NCBI GenBank assembly: GCA_016795105.1
Contig: JAEUIH010000080.1
Span: forward strand, 1 to 33,850
Origin: Planctomyces sp.
GTDB lineage: Bacteria; Planctomycetota; Planctomycetia; Planctomycetales; Planctomycetaceae
DNA: 33,850 nt
Direction: 5' to 3'
Shown: positions 71-33,850 of the stretch, one piece after another
How the letters are laid out: the number at the start of each line of letters is the position of its first letter
Numbering within the stretch: position 1 is the first letter of the stretch
The notes under the pieces: generated by a model
Told to the model about the DNA's origin: nothing
Database searches by the model: none
The model's input: the letters and a program-made list of their open reading frames with translations, nothing else
Program-made: the position numbers and the translations under genes

Positions 71-369
71 CTAGCTTGGGCATTCCTGCCCGAGCACTCC
101 CCTGCGCCGCTGCAGTACTCGAACCAGCGTGTGGACGGGCAGGAATGCCCATCCTACATTTCGAGCACGCCCCTGCGCCGCTGCAGTGCTCGAACCAGCG
201 CGTGGACGGGCAGGAATGCCCATCCTACATTTCGAGCCGCCCCTGCGCCGCTGCAGTGCTCGAACCAGCGTGTGGACAGGCAGGAATGCCCATCCTACAT
301 TTCGAGCACGCCCCTGCGCCGCTGCAGTGCTCGAACCAGCGTGTGGACGGGCAGGAATGCCCATCCCAC
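71..369. repeat. R1 palindromic repeat array, four units of 70-71 bp
   Basis: The array opens with a half-site at 71-94: CTAG, then stem CTTGGGCA, loop TTCC, stem TGCCCGAG. Four inverted half-sites follow at 133-154, 204-225, 274-295 and 345-366, each stem GGACGGGCA, loop GGAA, stem TGCCCATCC; the third has one mismatch. Spacing between them is 71, 70 and 71 bp. Between hairpins lies a second inverted repeat, TTCGAGCAC and GTGCTCGAA, around a GC-rich core containing CTGCGCCGCTGCAG. In the third unit a base is missing and this second stem is broken. The array lies just past the stop codon of the minus-strand radical SAM gene, so it may also end transcription. Bases 1-70 are AT-richer and show nothing I recognise. 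Confidence 0.9.
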
Positions 370-377
370 TTTGTGTG

Positions 378-2342
378 CTATTTTTGACGGAGCGCTTTTA
401 CGATGAAGTTGCGGGGGACTGTTGTTCGGGGAACTTTGTGTTTGAACCAGCTGCGGACATCCTGTTCAAGTCCGATTCCATGCATGAAGTTGTAGAGTGC
501 TCTATTGAGTGATTCGCCGAGCGTATCGTGGTCGACTCCGGTGGGGTCGATAAATCCGACATCGTTTTTTGCAAACGTCACCGGTGGAAGAGGGATCAGA
601 GTGACTCCGTAGTCTTCAGGTTGTTTTCCAACAGGTGAATGTACGGTACAAGTAAAGCGATGAAAGAAACCGCTTTGAATGCAATTCTCTTCAAACAACT
701 GACGGACGTATTCCAGTGCGTCGACGGTCTCCTGTACGGTTTGAGTCGGAAAACCGTACATCAGATATGCATGAACCAGAATACCGCCATCAGTGAATGC
801 GCGAGTCACCCGTGCTACCTGATCGACCGTGACGCCTTTCTTCATGAGGCTCAAGAGTCGGTTTGATGCCACTTCGAGTCCCCCGGAAATGGCAATGCAT
901 CCACTGTCAGCCAGCAACTCACACAGATCGGGGGTAAATGATTTCTCAAAGCGAACGTTTCCCCACCACGAGATGGACAGCTTGCGTCGGATGAGTTCAT
1001 CGGCAAGTGCCTTGAGCCCCTTCGGCGGGGCTGCTTCATCAACAAAATGGAAGCCCGTTTCGCCCGTCTCGTTCACGATCTGCTCGATCCGATCAACCAG
1101 CGTCTCTGCAGCGGCTGTGTCGTATCGTCCGATGTAGTCGAGCGATACATCGCAGAAGCTGCACTTCTTCCAGTAGCAGCCATGTGCAACAGTTAACTTG
1201 TTCCACCGCCCGTCAGACCAGAGTCGGTGCATTGGGTTGAGCATATCCAGTGTGGACAGATAAGAGCGAATTGGAAGGCCATCCCATGTCGGTGTTCCAA
1301 CCTCCGCAAATGGAACATCAGGTTCCGGATGGTTGATGAAAGCAACGGAGTCCTGCTGCACCTGACTGGTATCAGTTGTTCCAATCAGATTGGCATCAAT
1401 TTTGTGCCTGACAAATGTGCGGACAAGCTGGTCAACCGAACGTCCTCCGGCAAGATGGTCAAGCAATGCCAGCAGAGGACGTTCACCGTCATCGAGCGTG
1501 ACATAGTGAAAGAAATCGAAGACTCGCAGTTCAGACAGCTCTCTCAGTTCGGTGTTCACATATCCACCACCAAGAACTGTGACGATCGCCGGATTCCGCT
1601 GACGAATGGTTTGTGCAATTCGAAAGGCGGCATACACAGTTCCAGGAAACGGAACGGTGATCAGCACAACCGAGGGCTGATGACGTTGAATTGCCGAAAC
1701 GGTAAGTTCACGGAGTATCTGGTCTACAAGGTTTGGTGGAGCAGCCAATGCTTCGGCAAGCGGGTCGAATGTTGGCTGACTGGAAGCCAGTGATTCTGCG
1801 TAACGGACAAATTCAAATCTTGAATCAATGGCCTCCTTGATCACATCAGCAATGTCACTGAGATAAAGTGTCGCCAAATGTCTGGCCCGGTCGTGAATTC
1901 CAAGTGCACCAAATGCCCATGCCATGGGGTCGTCGTTGTCGTCATCGGCAATGAATACGTCGAGCGACTTAAATCGATACCCTTCCGGCAGAAACGTGCG
2001 ACTTGCAATCCGATGAACGAGCGTTGAGTCCCGATTCTGGAGAAACGCAATGACTCGGTTGATCGTTACGGAATACAGCTGAAAGTGATCCAGAAATCCA
2101 CGGACAACGGCCGTTCGCTTTGTCTGCGGCGAAGACAGAATGTTCTCGCGAATTCGTTCGAGACCTCGGGCTGAAAATAACTCCAGTATCAGCGCGATTG
2201 CGAGATCTTCCTGGACTGCCTGAAACCCTCTTGACCTTAGGAATCCTGTCAGATACGCCGTCGAAGGGTACGGTGTGTTGAGCTGCGTCATTGGCGGAAT
2301 GACGGACAGAATTCGTTGTGGAGATATGTTCATTGAATCCAT
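378..2342 (-). CDS. B12-binding domain-containing radical SAM protein
   Basis: A 654-residue radical SAM enzyme, expected to use a 4Fe-4S cluster and S-adenosylmethionine for radical chemistry; the substrate cannot be told. Residues about 225-300 (VVLITVPFPG, then VLGGGYVN) look like the Rossmann-type cobalamin-binding domain common in such enzymes, but without the DxHxxG cobalamin-ligand motif. The cluster motif is at C389, C394 and C397 (GCYWKKCSFCD), spaced CX4CX2C rather than the usual CX3CX2C. A TIM-barrel core follows (WWGNVRFEKSF, GGLEVASNRLL, YLMYGFPTQT). The start at 2342 has no clear Shine-Dalgarno; a second ATG three codons in (MNIS) is possible. It lies 178 bp downstream of the isomerase-like gene on the same strand, separated by an R4 element. 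Family call is firm, function open. Confidence 0.9.
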   Translation of the reverse strand: MDSMNISPQRILSVIPPMTQLNTPYPSTAYLTGFLRSRGFQAVQEDLAIALILELFSARGLERIRENILSSPQTKRTAVVRGFLDHFQLYSVTINRVIAFLQNRDSTLVHRIASRTFLPEGYRFKSLDVFIADDDNDDPMAWAFGALGIHDRARHLATLYLSDIADVIKEAIDSRFEFVRYAESLASSQPTFDPLAEALAAPPNLVDQILRELTVSAIQRHQPSVVLITVPFPGTVYAAFRIAQTIRQRNPAIVTVLGGGYVNTELRELSELRVFDFFHYVTLDDGERPLLALLDHLAGGRSVDQLVRTFVRHKIDANLIGTTDTSQVQQDSVAFINHPEPDVPFAEVGTPTWDGLPIRSYLSTLDMLNPMHRLWSDGRWNKLTVAHGCYWKKCSFCDVSLDYIGRYDTAAAETLVDRIEQIVNETGETGFHFVDEAAPPKGLKALADELIRRKLSISWWGNVRFEKSFTPDLCELLADSGCIAISGGLEVASNRLLSLMKKGVTVDQVARVTRAFTDGGILVHAYLMYGFPTQTVQETVDALEYVRQLFEENCIQSGFFHRFTCTVHSPVGKQPEDYGVTLIPLPPVTFAKNDVGFIDPTGVDHDTLGESLNRALYNFMHGIGLEQDVRSWFKHKVPRTTVPRNFIVKALRQK

Positions 2343-2400
2343 GTGTTCGGCAGACCCACGTGGTCTGTGAGGGCACCGTGGTCTGTGAATGAATAGGGAA

Positions 2401-2500
2401 TAGGCTTCCAGCCTGTCACTGTTGTGGTGTCACTGTTGTGGTGTCACTGTTGTAGCGACACTGTTCGGTTTCGAGTGGAAACTGTGACGCTGGAAGCCTA
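2401..2500. repeat. R4 palindromic element with internal 14-bp tandem repeats
   Basis: The arms are TAGGCTTCCAGCC at 2401-2413 and GCTGGAAGCCTA at 2489-2500, with GTCAC/GTGAC continuing the pairing inward. Each arm is itself a small hairpin: AGGCT, loop TCC, AGCCT on the left. The interior holds three tandem 14-mers, TGTCACTGTTGTGG, at 2414-2427, 2428-2441 and 2442-2455; the last ends in AG. It fills the gap between the minus-strand genes at 2521-3672 and 378-2342. A role as terminator or attenuator is possible but not shown; there is no run of T after the stem. Confidence 0.8.
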
Positions 2501-2520
2501 ACCCAGGAATGGTGGAGTGG

Positions 2521-3672
2521 TTATTGTGCCATTCCGTCGGTGAATGTAGCAAAGGTTTGCGACATTCCGGTGAGATGATCATTCACCCACTTAATTCCTT
2601 CACTGCAGGCGCCGAGGAGATGAGGAGCTGGTGCAGTCAGCGGAAGGATACTATCTTCGGCTTCGCTGTACATTGGCATGACCTGACCGCCATTGATTGC
2701 ACAGAATCGATCTCCGGCTCCAATCGCGAGCAGCATCTTTGCATAGCTGACAAGATTCACTTCGCCTTCGCCGTGCCCACAGAACTGATGTCCTCGCTGA
2801 GGCCAGTCTTCACTGATCATCAGCGTTGAAGCGCCTTCGAGGAACTTAAAGTTCTTGGCATGGCTTCCGACGACTCGTGGAGCAACAAACGGGCTAGTAA
2901 ATCGGCGAGTCCAGCTTTCACCCGCCCAGCAGTGGCTCGGATCGCCCCAGACGCACATCGATCGATCGTAGTCCGTTGCCAGGAGCAGCAATGCAAAGTC
3001 TCGAGCGCAGATGGCTCCGGTGCCTGGATGGATCTCGTGCGCAAGATACGCGCCCAGTTGATTGGCACGCGCTCGAATCTTAGCGGTCCGGTCACGGAAT
3101 CGATCCAGCCCCTTAGCCATCATGTCGTCCCAGCCAAACACCCATGGATAACCACTGTGCAGGACCGGATGTCCCCACAATCCCCAGAACCAGCCAAAGA
3201 TATGAATTCCGACGGCTGAACCCACTTCGAGCATTCCGATCAGATATTCTTCCGACCAGTCTTCGACGTACTGTGATCCCTTGGCGGCAACCGATTCGGG
3301 GACAAATTTGTCTGCATATTCCAGCCCCCATTTGGCACTCAAATGTGCATATGCCGCGCAATGTGCACTGATCGTTGGCGAAACGATTCCTGCTGCGTTC
3401 AAAACCTGCTTGAGTTCTTCAGGTTTGCGGAACACGATCCTGCCGTTTTCACCATGGCCAGGAGCATGAAGCAGATAGTTGGAAATCATCAGAGATCGCG
3501 CACCACAGCCCGTCGCATATTCGGCAACGGCTTCAAGCGACTTCAAACCACCAACCAGCTGCCCGGTTTCTACGCCAGCAACAAGGCTGACCGTCTGGCC
3601 GGAACCAAGATTCAACCGAGCGCGGTTGGTGTCAAAGTGGGTGCGAAACTCTTTAAAGTACAATGGGTCCAT
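2521..3672 (-). CDS. Xylose isomerase-like TIM-barrel protein (sugar phosphate isomerase/epimerase family)
   Basis: A 383-residue cytosolic protein resembling the AP-endonuclease-2/xylose-isomerase-like TIM barrels, which bind divalent metals and commonly isomerise or epimerise sugars. Likely metal-site residues are E213 in AHEIHPGTG, D244 and H247 in GDPSHCW, H271 in SHAKNF, and a Glu near 299 in HGEGEVN. There is no signal peptide. The ATG at 3672 is preceded by GAGGA with about six bases of spacing, a convincing ribosome-binding site. The gene lies between R2 (upstream) and R4 (downstream) elements, in the same direction as its neighbours on both sides. The substrate is unknown; inositol or keto-sugar substrates would be typical for planctomycete members, but that is a guess. 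Confidence 0.85.
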   Translation of the reverse strand: MDPLYFKEFRTHFDTNRARLNLGSGQTVSLVAGVETGQLVGGLKSLEAVAEYATGCGARSLMISNYLLHAPGHGENGRIVFRKPEELKQVLNAAGIVSPTISAHCAAYAHLSAKWGLEYADKFVPESVAAKGSQYVEDWSEEYLIGMLEVGSAVGIHIFGWFWGLWGHPVLHSGYPWVFGWDDMMAKGLDRFRDRTAKIRARANQLGAYLAHEIHPGTGAICARDFALLLLATDYDRSMCVWGDPSHCWAGESWTRRFTSPFVAPRVVGSHAKNFKFLEGASTLMISEDWPQRGHQFCGHGEGEVNLVSYAKMLLAIGAGDRFCAINGGQVMPMYSEAEDSILPLTAPAPHLLGACSEGIKWVNDHLTGMSQTFATFTDGMAQ

Positions 3673-3818
3673 CGTTTTTCCTCTTCATCGTTTAGGTCTG
3701 CTCGGAAACAAAATCAGGATGTGCAGACCATGACCAGCCATGATTTTGGCCTGGAATGAAGAGAAACGCAAAGGTGAAGCCATCTGCCCCCGCAAGTCCG
3801 TCAATTCGTGGAAAAGCA

Positions 3819-3971
3819 AAAGTACTCATCACGCTCCGCCGTGATGTCGAGCACTTGTTCGCGCTCGCCGGATTGCTGGTGGACTCTGCCCGACTCTGGC
3901 TGGCTGGATTGCGTCCGGCGTGCGCACGTAATGCGATCGCTCAACATTACGTGGAGCGTGATGAGTACTTT
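3819..3971. repeat. R2 palindromic element, copy 1 (153 bp)
   Basis: Ends are AAAGTACT at 3819-3826 and AGTACTTT at 3964-3971. Just inside each end is a hairpin half-site built on CATCACG, a loop containing CTCC, and CGTGATG. The right arm has one mismatch (CATTACG). The centre carries the family's conserved core CTGGCTGGCTGGATTGC followed by GTCCGGCGTGCGCA. This core can also fold (CTGGAT, TGC, GTCCGG with G-T wobbles). The element sits between the 3' end of the HAF-repeat gene and the 5' end of the isomerase-like gene. The rest of the gap (3673-3818) shows nothing beyond the Shine-Dalgarno of the isomerase gene. Confidence 0.88.
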
Positions 3972-3981
3972 GTTGATGTGC

Positions 3982-5190
3982 TTACAACTCAATCGGCGTC
4001 AATAGAAACGCGATCCGGTATGTGCTGCCGTCCGGGTTCACGAATTTGGCTGTTCCGAGTATTTCACCGAACTCACCGCTTTGAGCTGGATTATTGATTC
4101 TGTTTGCCTCAACTGTAATGGCACTCACCCAGCGACTGTCAGGGAATACCAGAGAATCCAGACTGTGCATCTTGTTTGTCGATGTCCAGAGAAACGCTTC
4201 CGAGCCACTCGCTCCAACGACCTGATTGGCATTGTTAATTGCGTTTGCCACACTGTCTGTGTTGTTTCCGAGGACGCCCAGGTCTGTTGGTTTTGAAGTT
4301 CCATTGAACAAGGCTGCATGCCGTTGTCCGACGACGGTTTTTGTAGCAGATTTAAACAGAGCAGCTCCGACGGATGTTCCAGGATCGTTAATTCCCGTGG
4401 CGAACGAAACAGTGGTATCGTAAGTTCCCGGCGCAACGAAGCCTGGAAATTTGACAGACTTACCAGTGGCCGGAGTGTACTGAAGTCCGTAAGTTCGCTG
4501 AACGCGGTCTTTATCTGTGGATTTGGCACCAGTGACGAACTGTGCAGAGCTATTTGAACCGCCGATGGCTATACCGTAGGAAGTCGCGGTGTACACGGTG
4601 TATCCGCCTGTCAGAAGTTTTGGGCGATGGATCTGCCAGCGAATGGAGTTCGTGCTGGAATTGTAGAATGACGTGATCAAGTCACCCGATTCAGTGATAC
4701 TCTCAACTGTTCCGGAGATATTCAGAAACTCGACGACCTGCGGGATTGGTTGGCCGGTAGACTGATCCAGCACCAGAGCGACTTGATATGGATAGAGGAG
4801 TCCGCCAAGCCGTGCATTACCTACAACAATACGGTCATTCGTGATGTCTTTGCAGGACTCGAGAACTGCACCTTCTGCGCCAGGCGGCAGAACTGCGATT
4901 TCCTGAGCCCAGAGAAGGCCCGTTTCTGCAGTCCGAATCCAGCCGGCACCAGGAAATCCGGCTCCCAAAGCAGATCCCACCGTGTCTCCCAAATCATTAA
5001 TCGCCGATGGGACAGTCGTTGTAAACGGGGAATCGATCGGATCAATCCAGGTGATGGCATAGTCTACATTTGGCCTGGGAGCACTCTGAGCAACGGCTCC
5101 CGGATGGTTCGCAAACAGTGCTGCGAACGTAACGAGGATGGTCAGGGGTGACAGGTAACAGTCTCGCGAGTATCTTTGATGCCAGCTCAC
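3982..5190 (-). CDS. Secreted HAF-repeat protein of unknown function
   Basis: The predicted protein is 402 residues from a GTG at 5190. I chose this start because AAGGGCGG lies upstream and because it gives a classic signal peptide: basic start (R6, R9), hydrophobic stretch LTILVTFAALFA (16-27), and cleavage after AVA at 34. The open frame continues upstream to 5592, but that part would overlap the divergent kinase gene and precede the signal peptide. The mature part contains several degenerate repeats of the form INxxxxxVGxA...AFLW (AINDLGDTVGSA, GINDPGTSVGAALF, AINNANQVVGASGSEAFLWT), typical of HAF-repeat extracellular proteins, whose role is unknown. No enzyme motif, PEP-CTERM or dockerin is seen. 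It ends 10 bp before R2 copy 1. Confidence 0.75.
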   Translation of the reverse strand: MSWHQRYSRDCYLSPLTILVTFAALFANHPGAVAQSAPRPNVDYAITWIDPIDSPFTTTVPSAINDLGDTVGSALGAGFPGAGWIRTAETGLLWAQEIAVLPPGAEGAVLESCKDITNDRIVVGNARLGGLLYPYQVALVLDQSTGQPIPQVVEFLNISGTVESITESGDLITSFYNSSTNSIRWQIHRPKLLTGGYTVYTATSYGIAIGGSNSSAQFVTGAKSTDKDRVQRTYGLQYTPATGKSVKFPGFVAPGTYDTTVSFATGINDPGTSVGAALFKSATKTVVGQRHAALFNGTSKPTDLGVLGNNTDSVANAINNANQVVGASGSEAFLWTSTNKMHSLDSLVFPDSRWVSAITVEANRINNPAQSGEFGEILGTAKFVNPDGSTYRIAFLLTPIEL

Positions 5191-5474
5191 TTTTTTCCGC
5201 CCTTGCAAACTGAATGATGACTTCCTTCGTAAATTCAGACTCCTGACGACAATGGCGCAGGGCACGTTGACTTCGTCTAATGCCATTACACAAATTTTCG
5301 AATGTTTTACGCGACCACTACTCGTGACACCGCAATTGACCGCTGTACGCCGACCTTCCTGTGGCTTTTCTGTATCTCGAAGAGAATTTCCAAAAAACGA
5401 CCAGACAATGGAGACTGAAAATGCGCTACAGGAATAAAGTGAAGAATCCATCCTGGCTCGGAATAGGTGCTTGA
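5191..5474. other. Divergent intergenic region, presumed promoters
   Basis: This 284-bp gap separates the HAF-repeat gene (minus) from the large kinase gene (plus), so it should contain promoters for both. I could not pick a convincing -35/-10 pair. Unlike the co-directional and convergent gaps, it carries no palindromic TCC-loop element. Confidence 0.4.
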
Positions 5475-8400
5475 GTGGCAGACAGAGCTGATCATCCACA
5501 AAGTGAAAAAGAGATACTGCTGGAGGCTTTGTCGCTGACACCAGAGTGTCGAGAGGCATTCCTGGACAAGGCCTGCGGTGATCAGCGGGCACTCAGGATT
5601 CGGATCGAATCGTTGCTCAGGCATGCCGTAGCCGACAGTGAGTTTATGGCGACACCGGTCACAACGATTGACTCCGCAAGGAACGTCAGGCAGGAAGCGA
5701 TCGGGACGCGAATCGGTCACTACCAACTGACGGAACAGTTGGGTGAAGGCGGGATGGGAATCGTCTACGTGGCAGAGCAGGTTGAGCCCGTCCGCCGTAT
5801 GGTTGCCGTTAAGTTGATCAAACCCGGGATGGATACTCATCAGGTGATTGCACGTTTCGAGGCGGAACGGCAGGCATTGGCGATCATGGATCATCCCAAT
5901 ATCGCACGTGTATTGGATGCCGGCGCCACGGACCGCGGTTTACCCTACTTTGTGATGGAGCTCGTTCGTGGACATCGGATTACTGAATACTGCGACAAAG
6001 CCAGGCTATCGACCGCCGAACGCCTGCGGCTCTTCATCGCCGTCTGCGGCGCCGTGCATCATGCTCATCTTAAGGGAATCATTCATCGCGATCTGAAGCC
6101 CAGTAATATTCTTGTCACGCTTCAGGATGGAGTTCCGATCATCAAAGTCATCGACTTTGGGATTGCCAAGGCACTGAATCAGGAGCCATCAGAGTTCTCC
6201 GTCTACACCACGCTGAATCAAATCCTGGGCACGCCGCTGTACATGAGCCCAGAGCAGCTGGAGTTGAAGGGGTTTGACATTGACATTCGAACCGATGTCT
6301 ATTCTCTCGGTGTACTGCTTTACGAATTGCTCACGGGAGTCCTTCCGTTCGACCGTGAAGAACTCTTCAAGTCGGGCTTCGACGAGATGCGGCGGATCAT
6401 CCGAGAAAAGGATGCTCCACGACCAAGCCAGCGCATGACAACGCTTGATGAAGAATCAAGAACAACCAACGCCATGCTTCGTGGCCTGGACAACAAGGCA
6501 CTTGCCCGGACGATTCGTGGAGAGCTGGACTGGATCGTAATGAAGGCTCTCGAGAAGGATCGAAATCGTCGCTATGACACTGCGAGTGCGCTGGCGGATG
6601 ATATCCAGAGGTATTTGAATCATGAGCGAGTCAACGCTCATCCGCCATCCCGCTGGTATCGTTTCCAGAAGTTCGCGCGACGTAATCGCGGGCTGCTGGT
6701 GACGGCGACGATGTTCTTCGCTGCAATCACAGTCGGGCTTGTTGGGACCAGTCTTCAGACCGTTCGCGCAAGAAATGCCGAAGCCCGTTCAAATTTGTTG
6801 TTGCAGCGAGAAATCAACCTTCGTCTGGCTGCGGAAACGCAGTCTCGCCGCGCCGATGAAGAATCGAAGCGCGCGATTCGTGGCGAACAGAAGGCCATTG
6901 AAGAGGAGTCGAGAGCCCAGGCGATTCTTGACTTTCTGTTGAATGACCTGCTGGCATTCAGTTCCGTCGAAATTCAATATCGAGAGATGATCGATGGTCC
7001 TAAGCTTGACCTTCCCGTTCACGCGTTGCTTGATCGAGCTGCGCCCCTTGTGGAACAGCGATTTTCCGATCGGCCATGGACGGCTGGCTCAATTCACTTC
7101 GTACTGGGCAAGTCCTATGACTCTCTCGGAGACACAGCGAAAGCGGAAGCTCACCTTCGAAAGGCAGTCGAGATTGGCAGGGCAGACATTGGCGAGGATC
7201 ATCCGGGATCACATAGAGCGAGTGTTGCCTTGAGCAAAACACTGACATCGCGTGGGCAATTCGCCGAAGCTGACGCTCTTCTGGCGAATTCGCTTCGGTT
7301 TTACAGCGAGAGTGGAACGCCCGAGGATGTAGACGCTCAGGAAGCGATGATGGCTCTGATTTATCTGCGGTTTGAACAGGGGCGCTCACACGAAGTACTC
7401 GATACGGCTCGAGAACTGGTGGATCTGCGAACAAAACTGTACGGCGAAGAGGATGAACGAACGCTCGCTGCGAAAGGTGATCTTGCTGCTCAATACGGCC
7501 GCACAGGGCGACATCAACTTGCAATCGAACTGCGTCTGAAGATTGTGGAGGTCCTTGAGAAGAGGCTCGCTCCAGCAGATCCTGTGCTGCTCTCCAATCT
7601 CTCGAACCTCGCCGCACTGTATTTTGAAGAAGAACGTTTTGTAATGGCCGAATCGCTGCTCCGTCGAGTCATCGACGGATATAGCCAGCACGGTCACGCT
7701 CGTTCGCGTGATCTGATTGTTAATCAAATCAGTTTGGCACGAGTGATGATTCGCGAGGAGAACCTGGCAGCTGCTGATCGACTCGTAGAACCATGGCGTC
7801 ACGACACTCAACAATCTCTGGATGAACGCGATCCGATTCATCTTCTGATGCTGGATTTGATGCAGGAGTATTATCTCAATAGAGGTGAAACCGAAAACGC
7901 CAGAGCGATCTTTGAACAACGGAGTGAGCTTGTTCCGGCTGTTTTCGGAGAGCAAAGCCGCGAGTACATCTCGCTCATCCAGGAAAGCACTCGGCTGTGG
8001 TTGCGTTTGAACAAACCGCAGGAGGCCGAGACTGCATTTGCGAAGTCCGTAGAGCTGGCAAAGTTGCAATTTGGCCCGGATCATCGTCTTACAAGATCCT
8101 GTATCAACAACTATGGAGTGCATTTATACTCGATGCGGCGCTATCAGGAAGCCGAGCAACTCTTTAATTCACTGATTGCGAATCGAGGGTCTGAGGGGAT
8201 CTCAGATGAAGTTCAGTTTCTTCGAGCCCTGCGTAATCTGTCCAGCGTTCAGATCGCTACGCAGCGGTTATCAGAAGCCAGGGCGACACTTCAGCGAGCT
8301 GTCGATCACGCAGATCAGACCGTCGGCCTGGATCACAATTTTGCGGCGATGTGCCGAGTTGAGCTCTCTGATCTGATTGTCAAAGATTTAGACGACCCAT

Positions 8401-10022: not shown

Positions 10023-10048
10023 TATTCGAGCAAGGCGATCTGCGTTCA

Positions 10049-10624: not shown

Positions 10625-10670
10625 CACCTCCTCTGTCTCCTCGTCTTCGAGTGATGCAGCGATCATCAAA

Positions 10671-10821
10671 AAAGTACTCATCACGCTCCGCCGTGATGTT
10701 GAGCACTGGTTCGCACTGGCTGACGATGGCTAATGCTGGCAGACGCTGGCTGGCTGGATTGCATCCAGCGTGCGCATGCGATGCCACGGCTCGACATCAC
10801 GCGGAGCGTGATGAGTACTTT
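10671..10821. repeat. R2 palindromic element, copy 2 (151 bp)
   Basis: Ends are AAAGTACT at 10671-10678 and AGTACTTT at 10814-10821. The right half-site, read inward, is a perfect hairpin: CATCACGC, loop TCC, GCGTGATG. The left one has a single extra C (CATCACGC, TCC, GCCGTGATG). The centre holds CTGGCTGGCTGGATTGC and ATCCAGCGTGCGCA, in the same orientation as copy 1. A run of T follows the right end, so transcripts leaving the sigma-factor gene would meet a strong stem and a U-run, which could act as a rho-independent terminator. Nothing else is recognised in the gap 10625-10933. Confidence 0.9.
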
Positions 10822-10933
10822 TTTTGCGCATGTCGGAGTGGCGTGTATTATGCGGTGGGTAATGAGTAATATGGGTGAATCGAACTGAACCCGGGGAACC
10901 AATTCTGTCTGTACCATGTGAGATTTGCAAACA

Positions 10934-11422: not shown

Positions 11423-11491
11423 GTCATCGCTGCCGAGTTTCAGCTTCTCAGCGGTCGTGATCCGTTGCATTTTGGGAACCGAAAGTAAAAC

Positions 11492-12229: not shown

Positions 12230-12279
12230 TCTGAATGTTCCATACAACGGACTTGTAACGGCAGCGGGAGACTTCGGCG

Positions 12280-13290
12280 ATGTTTCAGATGATTCGCAGT
12301 TTGATGAACAAGCTTGTTGACGGTTCAACAGGTTCGCTCCATAAACCTGATGGTGTTGGCGGCAAGGTGTCGACCGATCGACAACGAGGAACATTCATCG
12401 GACTTGCAGTCGGGGATGCACTGGGAGCGGCGGTGGAATTCCAGCGCCCTGGTACATTTGAGCTCGTGACCGGATATCGGGATGGTGGGCCTCATCGACT
12501 GAATGCCGGAGAGTGGACGGACGACACCAGCATGGCGCTTGCTCTGGCAGACAGCATTTCCAGCTCTGGATGGAATCTGAATGATCAGGCCCAACGTTAT
12601 GTGAATTGGTTGCAGGAAGGAATGTATTCCGTCAATGGACGATGTTTCGATATCGGTATCACAACAAGATATGCGCTGGCTCAGTTCTGCGCGACAAAGG
12701 ATGCACTGACATCCGGTAACCGCTCAGAGGGAGCGAGTGGTAATGGCAGCATCATGCGGTTGGCACCGATCCCAATTCGATACGGCCATCTCTATCCGGC
12801 GAAGCTGAATGAACTTGCAGGGTTCGCTGAGGGATCGAGTCTTCCGACTCATGCCAGCGAACAATGTGTTTCGGCATGCAGATACCTGGCGACTGTACTA
12901 GCAGCGTTGATTCAGGGCGAAGATCGTGAGGCGGTACTCTCTCCGGACTGGAAGCCTCTCAGGCAACTTAATGCAGTTCATCCTCTGCACCCATTGATCC
13001 AGGAAATTGCTCACGGCAGTTTTCGCCACCGGAATCCCCCGGAGATCGTGGGGTCTGGATGGGTTGTGAAGAGTCTCGAAGCATCACTTTGGGCATTCCA
13101 CGAAGCGGGGTCATTTGAAGAGGCCGTACTTAAGGCCGTGAACCTTGGAAATGACTCGGATACGACCGGAGCCATTTGTGGTCAGCTGGCAGGCGCGTAT
13201 TGGGGAGAGTCCGGCATTCCCGAACATCTGCGTTCCGGACTGGCCAGAATGGATCTTCTGGAAACCGCGTTAGCGGGGTTGCTTCTGTAG
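12280..13290 (+). CDS. ADP-ribosylglycohydrolase family protein (DraG-like)
   Basis: A 336-residue member of the DraG/ARH family, all-helical hydrolases with two metal ions (usually Mg) that remove ADP-ribose from proteins or small molecules. The conserved blocks are present: GTFIGLAVGDALGAAVEF near the start of the domain, WTDDTSMALALA (metal ligands), GNGSIMRLAPI, and GNDSDTTGAICGQLAGAYWG (second metal cluster). About 37 residues precede the domain, slightly longer than usual. GGGAG lies upstream of ATG 12280. The stop codon TAG (13288-13290) is part of the GTAG that begins the first R3 element, so the element defines the C-terminus. The target of de-ADP-ribosylation is unknown. Confidence 0.93.
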   Translation: MFQMIRSLMNKLVDGSTGSLHKPDGVGGKVSTDRQRGTFIGLAVGDALGAAVEFQRPGTFELVTGYRDGGPHRLNAGEWTDDTSMALALADSISSSGWNLNDQAQRYVNWLQEGMYSVNGRCFDIGITTRYALAQFCATKDALTSGNRSEGASGNGSIMRLAPIPIRYGHLYPAKLNELAGFAEGSSLPTHASEQCVSACRYLATVLAALIQGEDREAVLSPDWKPLRQLNAVHPLHPLIQEIAHGSFRHRNPPEIVGSGWVVKSLEASLWAFHEAGSFEEAVLKAVNLGNDSDTTGAICGQLAGAYWGESGIPEHLRSGLARMDLLETALAGLLL

Positions 13291-13500
13291 CAGGCAGACT
13301 CCGTCTGCCGTCCGCGACCGCGCAATCCCGCTGACTGTGGATGCTGAAAAAGCACTACCGCGTGGCGGACGGCACATGGAATGTGCCTGCTACTGTAGCA
13401 GGCAGACTCCGTCTGCCGTCCGCAACCGCGCAGTTCCGCTGACTGTGGATGCTGAAAAACAACAGCGCGAGGCGGACGGCACATGGAATGTGCCTGCTAC
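13287..13500. repeat. R3 palindromic element, two tandem copies
   Basis: Copy 1 is 13287-13393 and copy 2 is 13395-13500. Each begins GTAG, CA, stem GGCAGAC, loop TCC, stem GTCTGCC, then GTCCGC, and ends with the inverted half-site. Read inward, that half-site is GTAG, CA, stem GGCACAT, loop TCC, stem ATGTGCC, GTCCGC. The two half-sites are identical outside the stem and differ inside it only by paired changes. The centres contain GCTGACTGTGGATGCTGAAAAA. The pair sits between convergent genes and overlaps the stop of the ADP-ribosylglycohydrolase. A decayed half-site follows at 13507-13521 (GCAGAC, TTC, GTCTGC); nothing else is seen up to 13543. Confidence 0.92.
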
Positions 13501-22366: not shown

Positions 22367-22379
22367 TACTCCTCCCCCC

Positions 22380-22592
22380 AAAGTACTCATCACGCTCCGC
22401 CGTGATGTTGAGTTCTGGCATCATGTGCGCACGCTGGATGCAATCCAGCCAGCCAGGGTCGGTCGGTGCATGTCGGTGCATGTCGGTGCGAACCAGGGCG
22501 AACCAGGGCGAACCAGGGCTCAACATCACGCGGAGCGTGATGAGTACTTTGGAACCAGTGCTCGACATCACGGGGAGCGTGATGAGTACTTT
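22380..22592. repeat. R2 palindromic element, copy 3, with an extra right arm
   Basis: The element runs from AAAGTACT (22380-22387) to AGTACTTT (22543-22550). A further right arm follows, ending AGTACTTTT at about 22592 (half-site CATCACGGGGAGCGTGATG). Its conserved core is inverted relative to copies 1 and 2: TGCGCACGCTGGATGCAATC followed by CAGCCAGCC at about 22430-22456. The interior also carries short tandem repeats, three of TGTCGGTGCA type and three of GAACCAGGGC, from 22457 to 22520. It lies between convergent genes and ends in a T-rich run, so it may terminate transcription. Nothing else is seen in the 22367-22608 gap. Confidence 0.88.
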
Positions 22593-22608
22593 TCTTTTTG
22601 GGAGTTGG

Positions 22609-25518: not shown

Positions 25519-25976
25519 GGCGATGTACCTGAACTGTTGTTAACTGCCTGAAAACGCGAGTAAGGTAACAGATGCACGCGGCCTGAAAAATCAAGACATC
25601 GTTTGATGTTGCCACCGGTCGAATGAGGCAGTCGATCGCAGAAGGCGCAATCCCGAACGATGCTGTCTGCGATTCAGGCCCAGCGGGCCGGTACATCGTT
25701 AACGCGTGGCGTAAGCCACGGGTTACTGGATAACCGTGGCCGTTGCACCCAGCGTCGCCATTCGGAGTGTCGGCAGGGGGGGACTCAGTCGCCTTCGGCT
25801 TGCCGTTAAACTGATTCTGGCGTCTGATTGATACTGAGTTTGAACGGGTTTTCTCAGAACAATCTCGTTACACTACGAACCAGGCAATCGCGTCAGTTGT
25901 TGCGGCGTTTTGAAGAACAAGCATCGGCGACGGGACGTATTGCCTCCTGCCGTAGTTACTTCGACCTTTATGCGAA
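25519..25976. other. Divergent intergenic region with hairpin R5
   Basis: This 458-bp gap lies between the beta-helix gene (minus) and the S9 peptidase gene (plus), so it should contain both promoters; I cannot assign them. It contains a palindromic segment at about 25700-25741 (listed separately) and an inverted repeat ATCGCAGA / TCTGCGAT at about 25633-25675. No open frame in it looks like a real gene. Confidence 0.5.
25700..25741. repeat. R5 palindromic segment
   Basis: CGTGGC, loop GTAA, GCCACG forms a tight hairpin. The following bases offer an alternative pairing, CCACGGGTTA with ATAACCGTGG. It occurs once in the window. The loop lacks TCC, so I keep it apart from families R1 to R4. 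Similar sequences are, to my recollection, widely repeated in planctomycete genomes, but that needs a search. Confidence 0.6.
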
Positions 25977-28076: not shown

Positions 28077-28086
28077 AAACTCAAAT

Positions 28087-28250
28087 GTAGCTTGGGGATT
28101 CCTCCCCGAGCCGCCCCTGCCAAGTTGTAGCTTGGGCATTCCTGCCCGAGCCGCCCCTGCCAAGTTGTAGCTTGGGCATTCCTGCCCGAGCCGCCCCTGC
28201 CCTAACCAGAACTCGAACCAGTGCGGGACGGGCAGGAATGCCCATCCTAC
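28087..28250. repeat. R1 palindromic repeat array, 40-bp units
   Basis: Three tandem 40-bp units start at 28087, 28127 and 28167, each GTAG, a stem-loop, then CCGCCCCTGCCAAGTT. An inverted half-site closes the array at 28226-28250 (GGACGGGCA, GGAA, TGCCCATCC, TAC). Units two and three have stem CTTGGGCA / TGCCCGAG; unit one has CTTGGGGA / TCCCCGAG, a paired swap that keeps the stem. The loop is TTCC in all. It fills the gap between the S9 peptidase stop (28076) and the next gene, whose ribosome-binding site (GAGGGA) starts right after it. Confidence 0.92.
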
Positions 28251-28266
28251 GATAGAGGGATTTTCG

Positions 28267-30681
28267 ATGTCTTTCCAACATGACCGATACACTGGGTGTT
28301 CTTTGGCTTTGTGCTTGAGCATTGTTGTCGGCTCGTGGCTGAGCGGTGTGCATGCAGTAGCGGATGAGACTCAGTTTGACCGGGAAGTGCTTCCGATTCT
28401 GAAATCTCATTGTGTTCGCTGCCATGGGGCCGAGAAGCAGGAGGGTGGAGTCCGGCTCGATACGTTGTCGGTCAACTTGGTCGACGACCGGGCCGCTCTG
28501 GAGCAGTGGCACGAAGTACTGAACGTACTCCAGAAGAGCGAGATGCCGCCAGAGGGAGAGATGCCATTATCGAGCCAACAGCTGCAGACCTTGACGGATT
28601 GGGTTTCTTCATCCGTTCATCAGGCATTAGAAGCACGTCGGCAGACGGACGGTCGAGTGGTTATGAGGCGGCTGAATCGGTTCGAATACCAGAACACGAT
28701 GCGGGACCTTTTGGGGTTGGACATGGACTATTCGAGAGATTTACCTCCGGATGCTGTGTCTTCCGACGGCTTTCAGAATAACGGCCGGTCATTGCAGATG
28801 TCGTCTCTGCAGTTCGAATACTATTTGGCCACTGCGCGACGAGCGATGGATCGAGTCATCGTCCGGGGTGAACAACCTCGAAAGTTCGACTATGTCTTTC
28901 CGGAAAGCAATGTGGATGAATGGCTTGGGGATGCTCAGCGATCAAATCGACTCGGACGGAGACAGGAATTTTTGGCGAAGATGGTGAACGATTATCCGGA
29001 CGATGGTGACTTTCTGGTACGAGTCCGTCTGTCGGCTGAACTGAAACCTGAGACCGGTTACCCATTGCTGGAGGTTTCCGTGGGATATCGCCCGGACACT
29101 GAAATTCTGATGCAGGAATTTGAACTTGTAGAGATCACTTCATCAGATTCACAGACCTTTGAATTCCGAGGCCGGCTTGAGAATTTTCCTCTGCCGGTAC
29201 GGGGGCAGGGCAAGTATCCGGGGTTGGTCGTGCGGGTTCGAAATGTCTATGACGACAAGTCTCCTCTGCCAGCAGCACAGAAAGATGATAAGGGAAGGAC
29301 GGTCTACCCGGACGAGCCTCACCTGCCAACGCTGACGATCGAGTCGGTGGAGTTTCATGGCAACGCATACGACCAGTGGCCCCCTGAATTGCATCGGAGA
29401 ATCCTGTATGATTCACCAGGTGTTGATCGGGAAGAAATAGCCTATGTGACAGAGCTCCTCAGGCGTTTCATGACGCGTGCGTTCCGACGGACCGTTGAGG
29501 ATGCTGAGGTTGCGAGGTTCGCGGCGTTCTACCAGTCGATTCGTGCCGAGTTCCCTTCGTTTGAGGAGACGATCCGAGAAGCCCTTGCGATGATTCTCGT
29601 GCAACCCGACTTCCTGTTTCTCCTGGAACCAGCCGGAGAAGAGAAACGAACGATCAGCGAACAGGAACTGGCTTCGCGATTGTCATACTTTCTTTGGAGC
29701 ACAATGCCCGATGATCGGCTGCTGGAACTGGCAAATGCCGGTACCCTCCGAGAGAATCTGGACGGAGAAGTTGATCGAATGCTGGCAGATCGTCGGGCTC
29801 AGCGTTTTTCAGAGCAGTTTACTGATCAGTGGCTGAGTCTTAATGTCGTCGACAACATCGCTGTGAATCGTGAACGCTACCCGGACTTTGATGATCGGCT
29901 GAAGTCTGATCTGTGCGATGAGACACATCAGATGTTTGAAGTCCTGCTTCGTGAGAATCAGAGTGCCATTCAGCTGTTGTCATCTGACTTTACCATGCTG
30001 AATGAACCGTTGGCGAAGCATTATGGGGTTCCCGGTGTGTTGGGACGTTCATTCAGACGAGTGGCTTTGCCCGCTGAATTGCACCGTGGCAGTATTCTGA
30101 GCCATGGCAGTGTCCTGTTAAGCAATTCCACAGGCGCTGATTCTCATCCTGTGCGACGGGCTGTCTGGATTCGAGACCGAATACTGAATGATCCACCAGC
30201 GCCGCCACCACCAAATGTTCCCACGCTGGAGGAAGCGAACCCGGAATTTCATCAGTTGTCGGTTCGCGAACAACTTGAGATTCATCGATCGAGGGAATCC
30301 TGTAATAATTGCCATCGGAACATCGACGCATGGGGGATTGCTCTCGAAAACTTTGATGCCGTTGGAAGATGGCGATCAGAGATACAGCGACGTACAGGAG
30401 ACAATTCAGAAATGCGACCTGTCGATGCAGTTGTGGAACTGCCAGGCGGCCGGCAGGTCATTGGTGCCGATGGACTTCGAGCCTACCTCGCAGGTGACCG
30501 GAGGCAGGATTTCGCTCGATCGCTGATCTCCAGACTGTTTACGTACGCTCTCGGGCGGTCTTTGGAATTGAGCGATCAGGATGCAGTTGATGATGTGCTC
30601 AACCAGTTTACGCAGGACGACTATCGTCTTAAGGGACTGGTCCATAAAGTGATTGGAAGTGATCTTTTTCAGACAAAATGA
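28267..30681 (+). CDS. Secreted cytochrome-c-like DUF1587/1595/1592/1588/1585 protein
   Basis: An 804-residue exported protein with a signal peptide of about 32 residues. The heme-c motif is CVRCH at 49-53 and the cytochrome part ends in SEMPPEGEMPL. Domains follow in the usual order: DUF1587 (about 131-180, RRLNRFEYQNTMRDLLG), DUF1595 (about 392-455, RRFMTRAFRRTV), DUF1592 (about 463-590, ELASRLSYFLWSTMPDD), DUF1588 (about 606-705), with a second heme-type motif CNNCH at 679-683, and DUF1585 (about 730-804). The family is abundant in planctomycetes and thought to help degrade polymers, though its reaction is unknown. GAGGGA lies six bases before ATG 28267. The DUF1552 gene follows after 73 bp, the standard pairing. 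Confidence 0.93.
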   Translation: MSFQHDRYTGCSLALCLSIVVGSWLSGVHAVADETQFDREVLPILKSHCVRCHGAEKQEGGVRLDTLSVNLVDDRAALEQWHEVLNVLQKSEMPPEGEMPLSSQQLQTLTDWVSSSVHQALEARRQTDGRVVMRRLNRFEYQNTMRDLLGLDMDYSRDLPPDAVSSDGFQNNGRSLQMSSLQFEYYLATARRAMDRVIVRGEQPRKFDYVFPESNVDEWLGDAQRSNRLGRRQEFLAKMVNDYPDDGDFLVRVRLSAELKPETGYPLLEVSVGYRPDTEILMQEFELVEITSSDSQTFEFRGRLENFPLPVRGQGKYPGLVVRVRNVYDDKSPLPAAQKDDKGRTVYPDEPHLPTLTIESVEFHGNAYDQWPPELHRRILYDSPGVDREEIAYVTELLRRFMTRAFRRTVEDAEVARFAAFYQSIRAEFPSFEETIREALAMILVQPDFLFLLEPAGEEKRTISEQELASRLSYFLWSTMPDDRLLELANAGTLRENLDGEVDRMLADRRAQRFSEQFTDQWLSLNVVDNIAVNRERYPDFDDRLKSDLCDETHQMFEVLLRENQSAIQLLSSDFTMLNEPLAKHYGVPGVLGRSFRRVALPAELHRGSILSHGSVLLSNSTGADSHPVRRAVWIRDRILNDPPAPPPPNVPTLEEANPEFHQLSVREQLEIHRSRESCNNCHRNIDAWGIALENFDAVGRWRSEIQRRTGDNSEMRPVDAVVELPGGRQVIGADGLRAYLAGDRRQDFARSLISRLFTYALGRSLELSDQDAVDDVLNQFTQDDYRLKGLVHKVIGSDLFQTK

Positions 30682-30754
30682 TCTGTTAATCCGGCCCAAC
30701 TTGTTAAATTGAACCACGATTCCCTTTGACTGAACCTGAAACACGGAAGCAGCC

Positions 30755-32110
30755 ATGTCCGAAAAATCCTGGCATCTGGATCGACGCGCCTTTCTGATGG
30801 GATCCGGGATCTCGTTGGGATTGCCATGGATGGAGTGCATGGCAAGGGACAATGATCAACCCGTCCGTCAGGATCAAAAGCCTCGTCGAATTTGCGCGAT
30901 GTATTTTGGATTTGGAGTTGGTCTTCCAGGCGAAGACAGCCCACATGCTCAATGGCGTTGGTTTCCTAAAGGCGAAGGTCGCGAGTTTCAGTTTACGGAA
31001 ACGCTTAAGCCACTTGATGTACATCGAGAAAAGCTCACTGTGCTTGGTGGACTCTCGCATCCCAATGGGCGTCGCATGGGAGGGCACGATACTGGCGATA
31101 CGTTCTTGACCGGCGCGTTCCTGAACAACAAGTTTCTGGTCAATACGATCTCTGTCGATCAGGTCGCTGCAAAGTCCGTGGGAGATCAAACACGTTTCTC
31201 GTCGCTGGTGTTGTCGACTGATGGAGGTGTAGGTGAACCGACTCGTTCGAGTACACTTTCATACAACGACAAGGGGCGACCGCTGCCTGCGCTGCATCAG
31301 CCGCAGCAAATCTTCGATCGATTCTTCGGGACGGGCGATGCGGATACGATTGCTGAACGTCGAAAACTTAAGAGCGCTTCCAGTATGCTGGACCTGGTGC
31401 TTGAGGATTCTCGATCATTGAGAAATCGTCTTGGCAATCAGGACCGTGAGAAACTGGACGAATATCTGGCATCGGTAAGACAGATTGAACTGGGTGTCGA
31501 ACGATCTCAGCGCTGGCTGGAGATACCTCGTCCGGAACTGCGCGACGAAGAGCGAACGATGCTGCATCTTGACTCAGATGACGAAGCACCTTTGCAGTTC
31601 ATCCGCACCATGTATGACCTGATGTATCTCGCATTTCGCACGGATTCAACGCGTGTTGCAACATACCAGATCACCAACATGGCGGACTGCTCGTCGAAAG
31701 CCGCCAAGTTCCCGCAGCTTCAGGGTTTCAAAGACTCTCTGCACACACTTGCTCATGATTGGGATAAGCCTGAGGGAGCTGAGAAACTGGGCCGATGGGA
31801 CCGCTTCATGGCGGAGCAGTTCGTGTACTTCCTGAATCGACTTGATTCTGCTCAGGAAGAGAGTGGATCAATTCTTGATAACTCAATGGTGCTGTACGGC
31901 AGCAGCAACAGCGTTACTCACGACAACAGCAACTACCCGCTGATTTTGGCGGGCGGTTCCGAATTTGGATTGAAGCACGGTCGGTATCTGAAGTTCAGTG
32001 ATCAGGTCCCAATGTCTAACCTGTTCGTAACAATGCTCAACAGCGCCGGGGTTCCCTGTGCTTCGTTTGCAGACAGCACAGGGGAACTGACGGAATTGAA
32101 GTTCCAGTAG
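30755..32110 (+). CDS. Tat-exported DUF1552 protein
   Basis: A 451-residue DUF1552 protein with a twin-arginine signal at about 9-27 (DRRAFLMGSGISLGLP). Conserved blocks include CAMYFGFGVGLPGED, EKLTVLGGLSHPNGR, GGHDTGDTFLTGAF, SVDQVAAKSVGDQTRFSSL, and near the end VLYGSSNSVTHDNSNYPLILAGG. The family has no proven activity; it is nearly always encoded beside a DUF1592-type protein, as here, and the two are likely exported to work together. GGAAG precedes ATG 30755. The stop TAG at 32108-32110 lies within the GTAG that starts an R3 element. Confidence 0.93.
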   Translation: MSEKSWHLDRRAFLMGSGISLGLPWMECMARDNDQPVRQDQKPRRICAMYFGFGVGLPGEDSPHAQWRWFPKGEGREFQFTETLKPLDVHREKLTVLGGLSHPNGRRMGGHDTGDTFLTGAFLNNKFLVNTISVDQVAAKSVGDQTRFSSLVLSTDGGVGEPTRSSTLSYNDKGRPLPALHQPQQIFDRFFGTGDADTIAERRKLKSASSMLDLVLEDSRSLRNRLGNQDREKLDEYLASVRQIELGVERSQRWLEIPRPELRDEERTMLHLDSDDEAPLQFIRTMYDLMYLAFRTDSTRVATYQITNMADCSSKAAKFPQLQGFKDSLHTLAHDWDKPEGAEKLGRWDRFMAEQFVYFLNRLDSAQEESGSILDNSMVLYGSSNSVTHDNSNYPLILAGGSEFGLKHGRYLKFSDQVPMSNLFVTMLNSAGVPCASFADSTGELTELKFQ

Positions 32111-32255
32111 CAGGCAGACTCCGTCTGCCGTCCGCAACCGCATGCAAACCGTCCTTCCAAAAACAAATGCCTCGCAGAATCGCAGACTACCGCGTTGCGG
32201 ACGGCACATGGAATGTGCCTGCTACTGTAGCAGGCAGTCTCCGTCTGCCGTCCGC
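32107..32255. repeat. R3 palindromic element plus an extra half-site
   Basis: A full copy occupies 32107-32225: GTAG, CA, stem GGCAGAC, loop TCC, stem GTCTGCC at the left and the inverted ATGTGCC-type half-site ending CTAC at the right. The interior differs from the copies at 13287-13500. A lone left half-site follows at 32227-32255 with one stem mismatch (GGCAGTC). The element lies between the DUF1552 and sulfatase genes and overlaps the DUF1552 stop. The remaining bases to 32285 hold nothing I recognise. Confidence 0.9.
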
Positions 32256-32285
32256 GCCGCCCTGCATCGCTCCAGAGCAAAAATC

Positions 32286-33629
32286 ATGAAACACCAATTG
32301 ATTCTCTTTGTGTTGACTCTTCTAACCTCAGCGATTGGCGAGTCTTCCGTTCTGTCTGCGGATGTGCGAAAGCCGCATATCGTGTTCATACTGTCGGACG
32401 ATCAGGGATCGTATGACGTAAGTTACAAGGGAGGCGAGATCAGGACACCGGAAATTGATAAGCTTGCAATGTCGGGGACGCAGTTGGATCAATTCTACGT
32501 ACAACCGGTATGTACGCCGACTCGAGCATCCCTGATGACAGGCCGTTACCCGATTCGCTATGGGCTGCAGGTCGGTGTGATTCGGCCGTGGGCGAAATAT
32601 GGTCTGCCTCTTGAAGAACGTCTGCTGCCGGTTGTTCTTCGAGAAAACGGGTACCGCACCATCATCTGTGGCAAATGGCATCTCGGCAGCTTTGATCAGG
32701 CCTACTGGCCGATGCAGCGTGGCTTTGATTCGCATACGGGACACCTGTTTGGAGCGATTGATTACTTTACTCATGTTCGCGACAAGGAACATGACTGGTA
32801 TGTGGATGGCGTGAACACACAACAGGACGGATACTCGACCCACTTGATCACTCAGGCGGCGGTTGACGCCATTGAACAGAATCCTCCTGAGCAGCCTCTG
32901 TTTTTGTATGTGCCATTCAACGCTGTTCACGGACCGTATCAGGTACCGGATCGGTACAAGACGGGATACGAGCATCTGAAAGGGAATCGACTGCAGATGG
33001 CTGGTATGCTGAGGGCACTCGATGAAGGTGTTGGACAGATTGTGTCAGCCCTCGAACGTGCGGGCATGCGCGAGAATACTCTGTTGATTTTCTCCAGCGA
33101 CAACGGTGGCGTTGGCCCAAATCGGATCACCAGTAACGGACCGCTGCGTGATGGTAAGGGAACCGTCTATGAAGGTGGCGTTCGCGCAGTCGCGTTCGCA
33201 ACGTGGCCGGGTCATATTCCGGCTGGAGAAGTGTGTCGAGAACCGATCCATATGGTCGACTGGTACCCAACGCTGATTCACCTGATTGGTGGTTCACTGG
33301 AACAGCCTCTCCCGCTCGACGGCATGGACATCTGGCCCGTCATCACTCAAAAGTCCAAATCACCACACAAGGAGATACTCAACAACGCAACGCCAGCCGG
33401 CGGAGCAATTCGAGTCGGTGACTGGAAGCTTGTCATCAAGACCGGGAATGGACAAGGGAGAGAGGCAAAAAGGGAATCCGTTGAACTCTATAATCTGATC
33501 GATGATCCATCGGAGACATCGAACATCGCAGCGGAAAATCCAGAGAAAGTTCAGCAGCTTACAGAACGCTTCTTAATCTATTCAAACGCTGCCGCATCAC
33601 CAAAGAACTCTGCTGAGACCACCGAATAA
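32286..33629 (+). CDS. Secreted type I sulfatase (arylsulfatase family)
   Basis: A 447-residue sulfatase from ATG 32286. The frame is open back to 32142, but that stretch is R3 repeat DNA and precedes a clear signal peptide (MKHQLILFVLTLLTSAIGESSVLSA, cleaved near residue 25), so the later start is right. Type I sulfatases hydrolyse sulfate esters with a formylglycine made from Cys or Ser. The maturation motif CTPTR is at 76-80 with C76 the modified residue, followed by ASLMTGRYP. Metal-binding Asp38 and Asp39 are in LSDDQG, GKWHLG follows at about 130, and FSSDNGG contains the later metal ligands. Length fits arylsulfatase B-like members. It probably desulfates algal or other polysaccharides outside the cytoplasm. 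A separate maturation enzyme is not in this window. Confidence 0.95.
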   Translation: MKHQLILFVLTLLTSAIGESSVLSADVRKPHIVFILSDDQGSYDVSYKGGEIRTPEIDKLAMSGTQLDQFYVQPVCTPTRASLMTGRYPIRYGLQVGVIRPWAKYGLPLEERLLPVVLRENGYRTIICGKWHLGSFDQAYWPMQRGFDSHTGHLFGAIDYFTHVRDKEHDWYVDGVNTQQDGYSTHLITQAAVDAIEQNPPEQPLFLYVPFNAVHGPYQVPDRYKTGYEHLKGNRLQMAGMLRALDEGVGQIVSALERAGMRENTLLIFSSDNGGVGPNRITSNGPLRDGKGTVYEGGVRAVAFATWPGHIPAGEVCREPIHMVDWYPTLIHLIGGSLEQPLPLDGMDIWPVITQKSKSPHKEILNNATPAGGAIRVGDWKLVIKTGNGQGREAKRESVELYNLIDDPSETSNIAAENPEKVQQLTERFLIYSNAAASPKNSAETTE

Positions 33630-33723
33630 GTCTTCGTCGGTCATGACATCATCATTGTTGTGTTCGCTCAACAACTCATCCCGTCTCCGCACTCGCACGA
33701 GTACTGCAGAGGCGGCTCAAAAT

Positions 33724-33850
33724 GTAGGATGGGCATTCCTGCCCGTCCACGCGCTGGTTCGAACACTGCAGCGGCGCAGGGGCGGCTCAAAATGTAGGAT
33801 GGGCATTCCTGCCCGTCCACGCGCTGGTTCGAGTACTGCAGCGGCGCAGG
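33724..33850. repeat. R1 palindromic repeat array, inverted, cut by the window edge
   Basis: Two units start at 33724 and 33794, 70 bp apart: GTAG, stem GATGGGCA, loop TTCC, stem TGCCCGTC, then CACGCGCTGGTTCGA and the GC-rich core CTGCAGCGGCGCAGG. This is the reverse complement of the array at 71-369. The second unit is cut by the end of the window. The 94 bases between the sulfatase stop and the array show no gene. Confidence 0.9.

Follow-up and report, generated by a model that had tools for sequence, protein, structure and literature searches.

The 33,850-nucleotide stretch analysed here (hereafter the window) is contig 370 of an 8.9-Mb Planctomyces sp. genome, assembled in 391 contigs and 99.96% complete. 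It carries three families of short hairpin repeats, R1, R2 and R3, which are best read as planctomycete repetitive extragenic palindromic (REP) sequences, many of them arranged as inverted pairs resembling REP doublets forming hairpins (REPINs) or bacterial interspersed mosaic elements (BIMEs). According to this reading, to which we assign a probability of about 0.85, RAYT proteins spread the repeats in trans by reading a GT-N-G tag and a TCC triloop while the stems drift. R1, R2 and R3 themselves encode nothing and most likely owe their spread to RAYT (TnpA-REP) proteins of the Y1/HUH type encoded at other places in the chromosome.

Repeat families of the window and their copies in the genome

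Pattern searches of the whole genome, each controlled by a search with the pattern reversed, returned 808 copies of the R1 core (control, 1), 438 copies of the R3 core (control, 4) and 300 copies of R2 (control, 4). R1, R2 and R3 are genome-wide REP-like families. A first-pass annotation of the window had proposed a fourth family, R4, but allowing at most one mismatch only three matches to it were found in the genome, against one in the control, and the sole exact match was the window's own copy. R4 was therefore ruled out as a repeat family; of the four, it is the only one that could be a terminator or a chance palindrome.

The window contains 11 R1, seven R2, seven R3 and two R4 half-sites, the last forming one inverted pair (Table 1). 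All the inverted half-sites reported in the first-pass annotation were recovered in place, with the TCC-containing loops described there: TTCC in R1 and TCC in R2, R3 and R4. The GTAG tetranucleotide, said to lead most R1 and all full R3 half-sites, indeed precedes 9 of the 11 R1 and all seven R3 half-sites; the two remaining R1 tags are CTAG and GTGG, which brings the GT[A/G]G type to 10 of 11. The usual genomic form of R2 is CATCACG-CTCCG[C/T]-CGTGATG, that is, a TCC loop with a C-G closing pair and one bulged base. Its tag is GTACT and not GTAG, as seen at 75 of 83 distinct sites anchored on CATCACGCTCC in the examined DNA of the genome, and with GTAC R2 falls outside a strict GT[A/G]G definition of a REP tag.

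Copies elsewhere in the genome keep both loop and stem, as the first-pass annotation had anticipated. When the loop was left free and a subset of the genome's DNA was examined, a TCC loop was present in 39 of 40 R3 copies, and the inner stem was paired in 39 of 40 by way of four compensated variants. R2 had TCC in the loop of 72 of 79 copies, and R1 had TTCC in 53 of 58 and TTCT in the other five. The outer arms of R1 covary (GCT/AGC in 24, GGA/TCC in 21 and GGT/ACC in 4 of 53 copies). A T-G mismatch inside the R1 stem is kept in 52 of 53 copies, for example at 28127–28151, and the pairs around it covary. This mismatch is reminiscent of the bulge in Escherichia coli REPs. A similar one occurs at the related-family loci L167, L169, L171, L179 and L183. 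In an unbiased 400-kb sample of the genome, hairpins with stems of at least 7 had TCC as their most frequent triloop (14 of 48, versus 2.7 of 32 in Markov sequence). Folded as single-stranded DNA, three inverted pairs of the window scored far better than shuffled sequences (z scores in Table 1). An Rfam scan of the window gave no match. Between the two R4 half-sites, at 2414–2465, lies a short tandem repeat with a 14-base unit (TGTCACTGTTGTGG).

Table 1. Repeat half-sites in the window, by family
Family	Positions	Strand	Features	Evidence
R1	71–95	+	tag CTAG, stem GGGCA, loop TTCC	
R1	133–157	-	GTAG tag	
R1	204–228	-	GTAG tag	
R1	274–298	-	GTAG tag, one stem mismatch	seen in only one of the window scans
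R1	345–369	-	tag GTGG	
R1	28087–28111	+	stem GGGGA/TCCCC	
R1	28127–28151	+		
R1	28167–28191	+		
R1	28226–28250	-	inverted partner	pair fold z -7.5
R1	33724–33748	+		
R1	33794–33818	+		
R2	3822–3846	+	tag GTACT, TCC loop and bulge	
R2	3945–3968	-	inverted partner of 3822–3846	pair fold z -6.5
R2	10674–10698	+		
R2	10795–10818	-	perfect 8-bp stem, TCC loop	
R2	22383–22407	+		
R2	22524–22547	-	perfect stem	
R2	22567–22589	-		
R3	13287–13309	+	TAG of GTAG tag is the stop codon of open reading frame 12280–13290	
R3	13371–13393	-		pair fold z -6.9
R3	13395–13417	+		
R3	13478–13500	-		
R3	32107–32129	+	TAG of tag is the stop codon of open reading frame 30755–32110	
R3	32203–32225	-		
R3	32227–32249	+		
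R4	2400–2415	+	no genome-wide family	
R4	2489–2500	-	inverted partner	

RAYT genes and the hairpins beside them

Since no RAYT gene had been seen in the window, the first-pass annotation had suggested that the families are served in trans by related RAYTs flanked by the same half-sites. A RAYT profile indeed matched none of the window's reading frames at E values up to 1. Searching the genome with Pfam Y1_Tnp, and then with a profile built from three of the matches, yielded four related RAYT-like genes, all on contigs other than the window; the RAYTs are homologues and can be placed in one tree, as proposed. One gene (L013/L165) has R1 half-sites on both sides. Directly 3' of another (L006/L012) come several successive R3 half-sites, and the tag of the first one provides the stop codon of the gene; the contig starts 174 bases upstream, so that the other flank lies largely outside the view of the assembly. 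The suggestion thus held for R1 and R3. For R2 it did not hold within the assembly, where no flanked RAYT was found, but the R2 hairpin, with or without its bulge, flanks seven RAYTs of other bacteria (L110, L117, L122, L127, L128, L163 and L120), mostly with a GTAG tag. The remaining two genes have hairpins of their own. L008 is flanked by hairpins of the type GTAG-AACGATTG-TCCT (R5), which occur six times in 0.69 Mb of examined genome DNA, always on the contig of their RAYT, and L009 by GTCGT-GGATCGC-TCC hairpins (R6), with nine occurrences in the same DNA, five of them at the locus of their RAYT. A broader profile, applied genome-wide and to the examined DNA, disclosed no fifth RAYT of this kind, and a stricter motif scan gave no match. 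Two IS200-like Y1 genes of this genome (L001, 865–2889; L002, 1971–2131) sit among repeated palindromes with AAC/GTT loops, unlike the loop of the RAYT families.

To place these genes in a wider sample, we gathered RAYT loci by protein similarity only: the best 80 of 222 from named genomes, the best-scoring 30 from 120 genomes of the same family and three loci from this genome. Ten same-family loci, on contigs equal in length to those of loci already in the sample, were dropped as duplicates and are omitted from the survey, tag, tree and alignment counts, leaving 103 loci from records titled Planctomycetes, Verrucomicrobia and Poribacteria and from other relatives. One of them, L141, in which the match breaks frame, was omitted from the protein alignment and kept in the tree.

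Proteins of the main RAYT group carry the HUH histidines, the catalytic tyrosine and the NP after it that define Y1 HUH enzymes (N-H in 84, the second histidine in 83, Y in 84, N in 84 and P in 69 of 84). In the E. coli TnpA-REP protein, the text of PMC6006769 assigns tag recognition to W94, Q95, E100, H101 and R104, calling the role of W94 unclear. Matched by spacing only, the counterparts in the main group are W in 84, Q in 83, D in 84, H in 82 and R in 84 of 84 proteins; in the R1-type group (n = 19), Q is found in 12 and H in 4, with R in place of H in 13. The best solved relative by sequence is the TnpA-REP structure 4er8 (E = 2e-4), which is also the best structural match of the predicted L087 model (pLDDT 92; E = 1.5e-5, TM score 0.42 by query length, root-mean-square deviation 11.7). 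NCBIfam NF047646 matches 65 of 65 aligned relatives; L006, L008, L009 and L087, at 50–64 bits, do not reach its cut-off of 80 bits.

We surveyed the 103 loci for repeated hairpins within 700 bp of the RAYT, orienting them by a GT[ACG]G or GTAC tag and placing no condition on the loop. Tagged repeated hairpins were present at 90 loci, and at 79 of these the commonest loop contained TCC; in controls, 5 of 52 windows 1.6–2.3 kb away and 1 of 103 shuffled flanks scored. GTCG tags were found at 20 of the 90 loci. Perfect hairpins gave the same picture, a TCC loop being present in 224 of 294 within 600 bp of the 80 named RAYTs (88 kb) versus 9 of 65 beyond 1500 bp (196 kb). The main RAYT group follows the TCC loop rule closely, the commonest loop containing TCC at 72 of 75 loci, whereas in the R1-type subclade the rule is weak. 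A GGCT-TCC-AGCC core flanks the RAYTs L179–L181 of relatives. At L149 and L158 the loop is GCC in place of TCC, and these two may be natural loop variants.

A nearly fixed loop, a free stem and possible explanations for them

Information content, computed over the 56 main-group loci with a 3-nt loop, separates the parts of the hairpin. Values for the three loop bases are 1.78, 2.00 and 1.87 bits; the closing pair reaches 1.29 bits and the third pair 1.27 bits. The remaining positions among the first nine of the stem carry 0.17–0.64 bits, and the tenth, filled in 32 loci only, 1.18 bits. Main-group loci display 29 distinct loop-side 6-mers, and 14 of 62 loci have a single RAYT gene flanked by stems that clearly differ but share the TCC loop. 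Under drift alone the opposite would be expected, because changing an unpaired base takes a single mutation, whereas changing a pair takes two. The pattern strongly suggests that RAYTs read the TCC loop. The first-pass annotation had proposed as much; the constancy of the loop against varying stems at RAYT loci is shown here, while we infer the contact with TCC itself, along with the mobility as single strands and the guide role of the tag.

The mechanism that we consider most likely would run as follows. Once the DNA is single-stranded, a half-site would fold into a hairpin. The RAYT would recognise the GT-N-G tag 5' of the hairpin together with the unpaired TCC loop, and the tag would direct the cut to a place next to the hairpin. 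Since whole pairs fold best as one long hairpin, formation of the TCC hairpins would need to be local or transient. The stem would mainly need to pair, so that stems could drift and give rise to new families around a constant tag and loop; this would explain why families that look unrelated share one design. Tag and triloop might even act as a shared code, allowing a RAYT to mobilise REPs with other stems. In that case a different TCC-reading RAYT within the cell, such as that of R3, could have spread R2, but we consider this extension doubtful.

The TCC loop could instead have come down from one ancestral REP by descent alone, with no role in recognition. Homology of the RAYTs speaks for this, as does the fit of the loop state to their tree, with at least 6 changes (100 shuffles: mean 10.6, least 8). 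On the same tree the tag requires at least 10 (shuffles: mean 28.3, least 24), and a lysine associated with GTAG tags is not independent of the tree. Inheritance would also account for the R3 sequence GTAGCAGGCACATTCCATGTGCC, which is identical beside L085, L086 and L087, RAYTs about 68% identical to L012 of this genome. We nevertheless regard descent alone as unlikely, because it was the unpaired, one-mutation loop that kept its information as most stem positions lost nearly all of theirs, because stems that differ but carry one and the same loop occur beside single RAYT genes, and because within one genome the R3 loop stayed TCC over four stem variants.

A second alternative is that the hairpins are kept for a role in RNA, their proximity to RAYT genes being secondary. 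GGA in a hairpin loop, as on the complementary strand here, is the core of CsrA sites, whose context is ANGGA, and this genome has ten CsrA-family matches over the Pfam cut-off (contigs C348, C369, C133, C380 with two, C347, C336, C365, C44 and C11). ANGGA would, though, need a T at position +4 of the tag strand, which is present in 19 of 56 loci; the 5' tag plays no part in this explanation; and TCC hairpins are concentrated at RAYT genes to the extent given above. This explanation is very improbable. Ordinary transcription terminators or chance palindromes, suggested by the many repeats shortly after gene ends, can scarcely be entertained given hundreds of copies versus 1–4 in controls, fixed 5' tags and flanked RAYT genes.

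Returning to RAYT-driven spread, the signs of mobilisation are indirect. Exact R2 sites number 184 in this genome, 2 in G047, 1 in G064 and 0 in the other 167 of 170 family genomes, so R2 has expanded in this lineage; the RAYT profile had no match beside the R2 sites of G047 and G064. At least 10 R1 cores were present in 5 of 120 genomes, namely 4 of 13 with an R1-type RAYT (E up to 1e-50) and 1 of 107 lacking one (p = 4e-4 by Fisher's test, with no correction for kinship and with an E threshold set after inspection of the counts). At L009, a hairpin of the locus's own REP family lies in frame at 1910–1928 inside the open reading frame 1441–2283 on the minus strand, where it codes for residues 117–128, of the MALDRGAIHDYQ type, absent from both paralogues. 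In G100, the orthologue of the gene preceding the R3 half-site at 13287 (74% identity, one internal stop) is not followed by R3, a weak comparison in that further gene order differs. In both R3 clusters of the window, the TAG of the first tag (13287–13290 and 32107–32110) is the stop codon of the preceding gene, as has been reported for GTAG REP tags (text of PMC3733652). Tags ending a frame of at least 100 codons in the examined DNA were not clearly enriched: 5 of 39 for R3 and 4 of 48 for R1, compared with 105 of 1717 other GTAGs.

Several observations weigh against RAYT-driven spread guided by tag and loop. The surveyed RAYTs are the top-scoring portion of longer match lists, and 13 of the 103 loci lack a tagged repeated hairpin. 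The R1-type subclade keeps TCC at only 7 of 15 loci, the others having TTCT, CTCT, CCC, CC, GTT, CATT, TC and TC, and three main-group loci, L114, L149 and L011, likewise have a commonest loop other than TCC. A whole pair folds best into one long hairpin that joins both half-sites, and not into two TCC hairpins. A broader profile run over the genome found no R2 RAYT in the assembly, its other matches being distant Y1 genes, and G047 has 30 R1 cores with no close R1-type RAYT. Finally, if the tag guides cleavage, the dinucleotide 3' of the hairpin should depend on it, and here the outcome was mixed. CG follows the hairpin in 0.74 of GTCG loci versus 0.42 of GTAG loci, and CT in 0.35 of GTAG loci versus 0.11, but CC was not raised in GTGG loci (0.26 versus 0.42). 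With 14 clusters at 60% identity, 164 of 5000 permutations reached the observed score; clustering at 50% identity left GTAG groups only.

Relation to known REP/RAYT systems

The REP/RAYT system itself is known, and GTAG-tagged REPs with RAYT genes have been published for Planctomycetes and Verrucomicrobia, including families of Rhodopirellula baltica and Opitutus terrae (text of PMC3733652). We conclude that R1, R2 and R3 of the window are new members of this published kind. In the texts of PMC3733652, PMC6006769, PMC8266576, PMC2817692, PMC12306157 and PMC3686654, figures and supplements aside, we found no statement of a TCC loop for these REPs, and likewise no group-wide TCC loop rule in the literature searched; the R. 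baltica consensus figure of PMC3733652, which lies outside the text search, may already show a TCC loop.

As described in the text of PMC3733652, the GTAG REPs and REPtrons resemble those reported here in being short tagged palindromes with short loops, arranged as inverted dimers and represented by several families per genome, with RAYT genes flanked by REPs and tags that provide stop codons. They differ in their loops, many of which are summarised there as fitting TY or CMA, and the GTAC tag of R2 also sets it apart from them.

Among TnpA-Y1 proteins, subclass 2.7 is close, as far as the text of PMC6006769 describes it: HVH, WQ and Y....NP motifs, about 213 aa, D in place of E100 and REPs tagged GT[AG]G. 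That subclass is listed for Cyanobacteria and a few other phyla. Compared by motif description ([ND]HVH, WQ and YI[LR][NQ]NP), the main group fits in HVH and WQ and differs in the third and fourth residues of the Y motif, the third being A in 59 and R in 14 of 84 proteins. The GTCG tags found here are likewise unlike the GT[AG]G of subclass 2.7. Class 3 of the same classification shares the concentration in Planctomycetes and the many hairpin copies, but has a Y....EQ motif and a CnGA foot, neither of which is seen in this RAYT group. Membership in class 3 was excluded, with N at the NP position in 84 of 84 proteins and tags of the GT-N-G form.

A functional parallel is offered by the group-3 TnpA-REP proteins of Stenotrophomonas and Marinomonas, whose REPs also have a perfect short stem and a short loop. 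According to the text of PMC8266576, a single loop base is essential in one of these systems, as are three loop positions in the second, and the cut shifts when the tag is altered. The need for loop bases in cleavage and the help of the tag in choosing the cut were shown there biochemically, whereas here they are predicted from sequence; the loops there are GCT and TTTA, and the proteins belong to other RAYT groups. How RAYTs choose their REPs has so far been worked out on few REPtrons. The 103 natural loci add to this by separating a near-fixed part (tag, triloop and closing C-G) from a free stem, a division that predicts what a RAYT reads and would explain the many stem families of one genome. 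It also offers a rule by which REPs can be searched for in such genomes, among them those with GTCG tags, which rules limited to GTAG or GTGG would miss.

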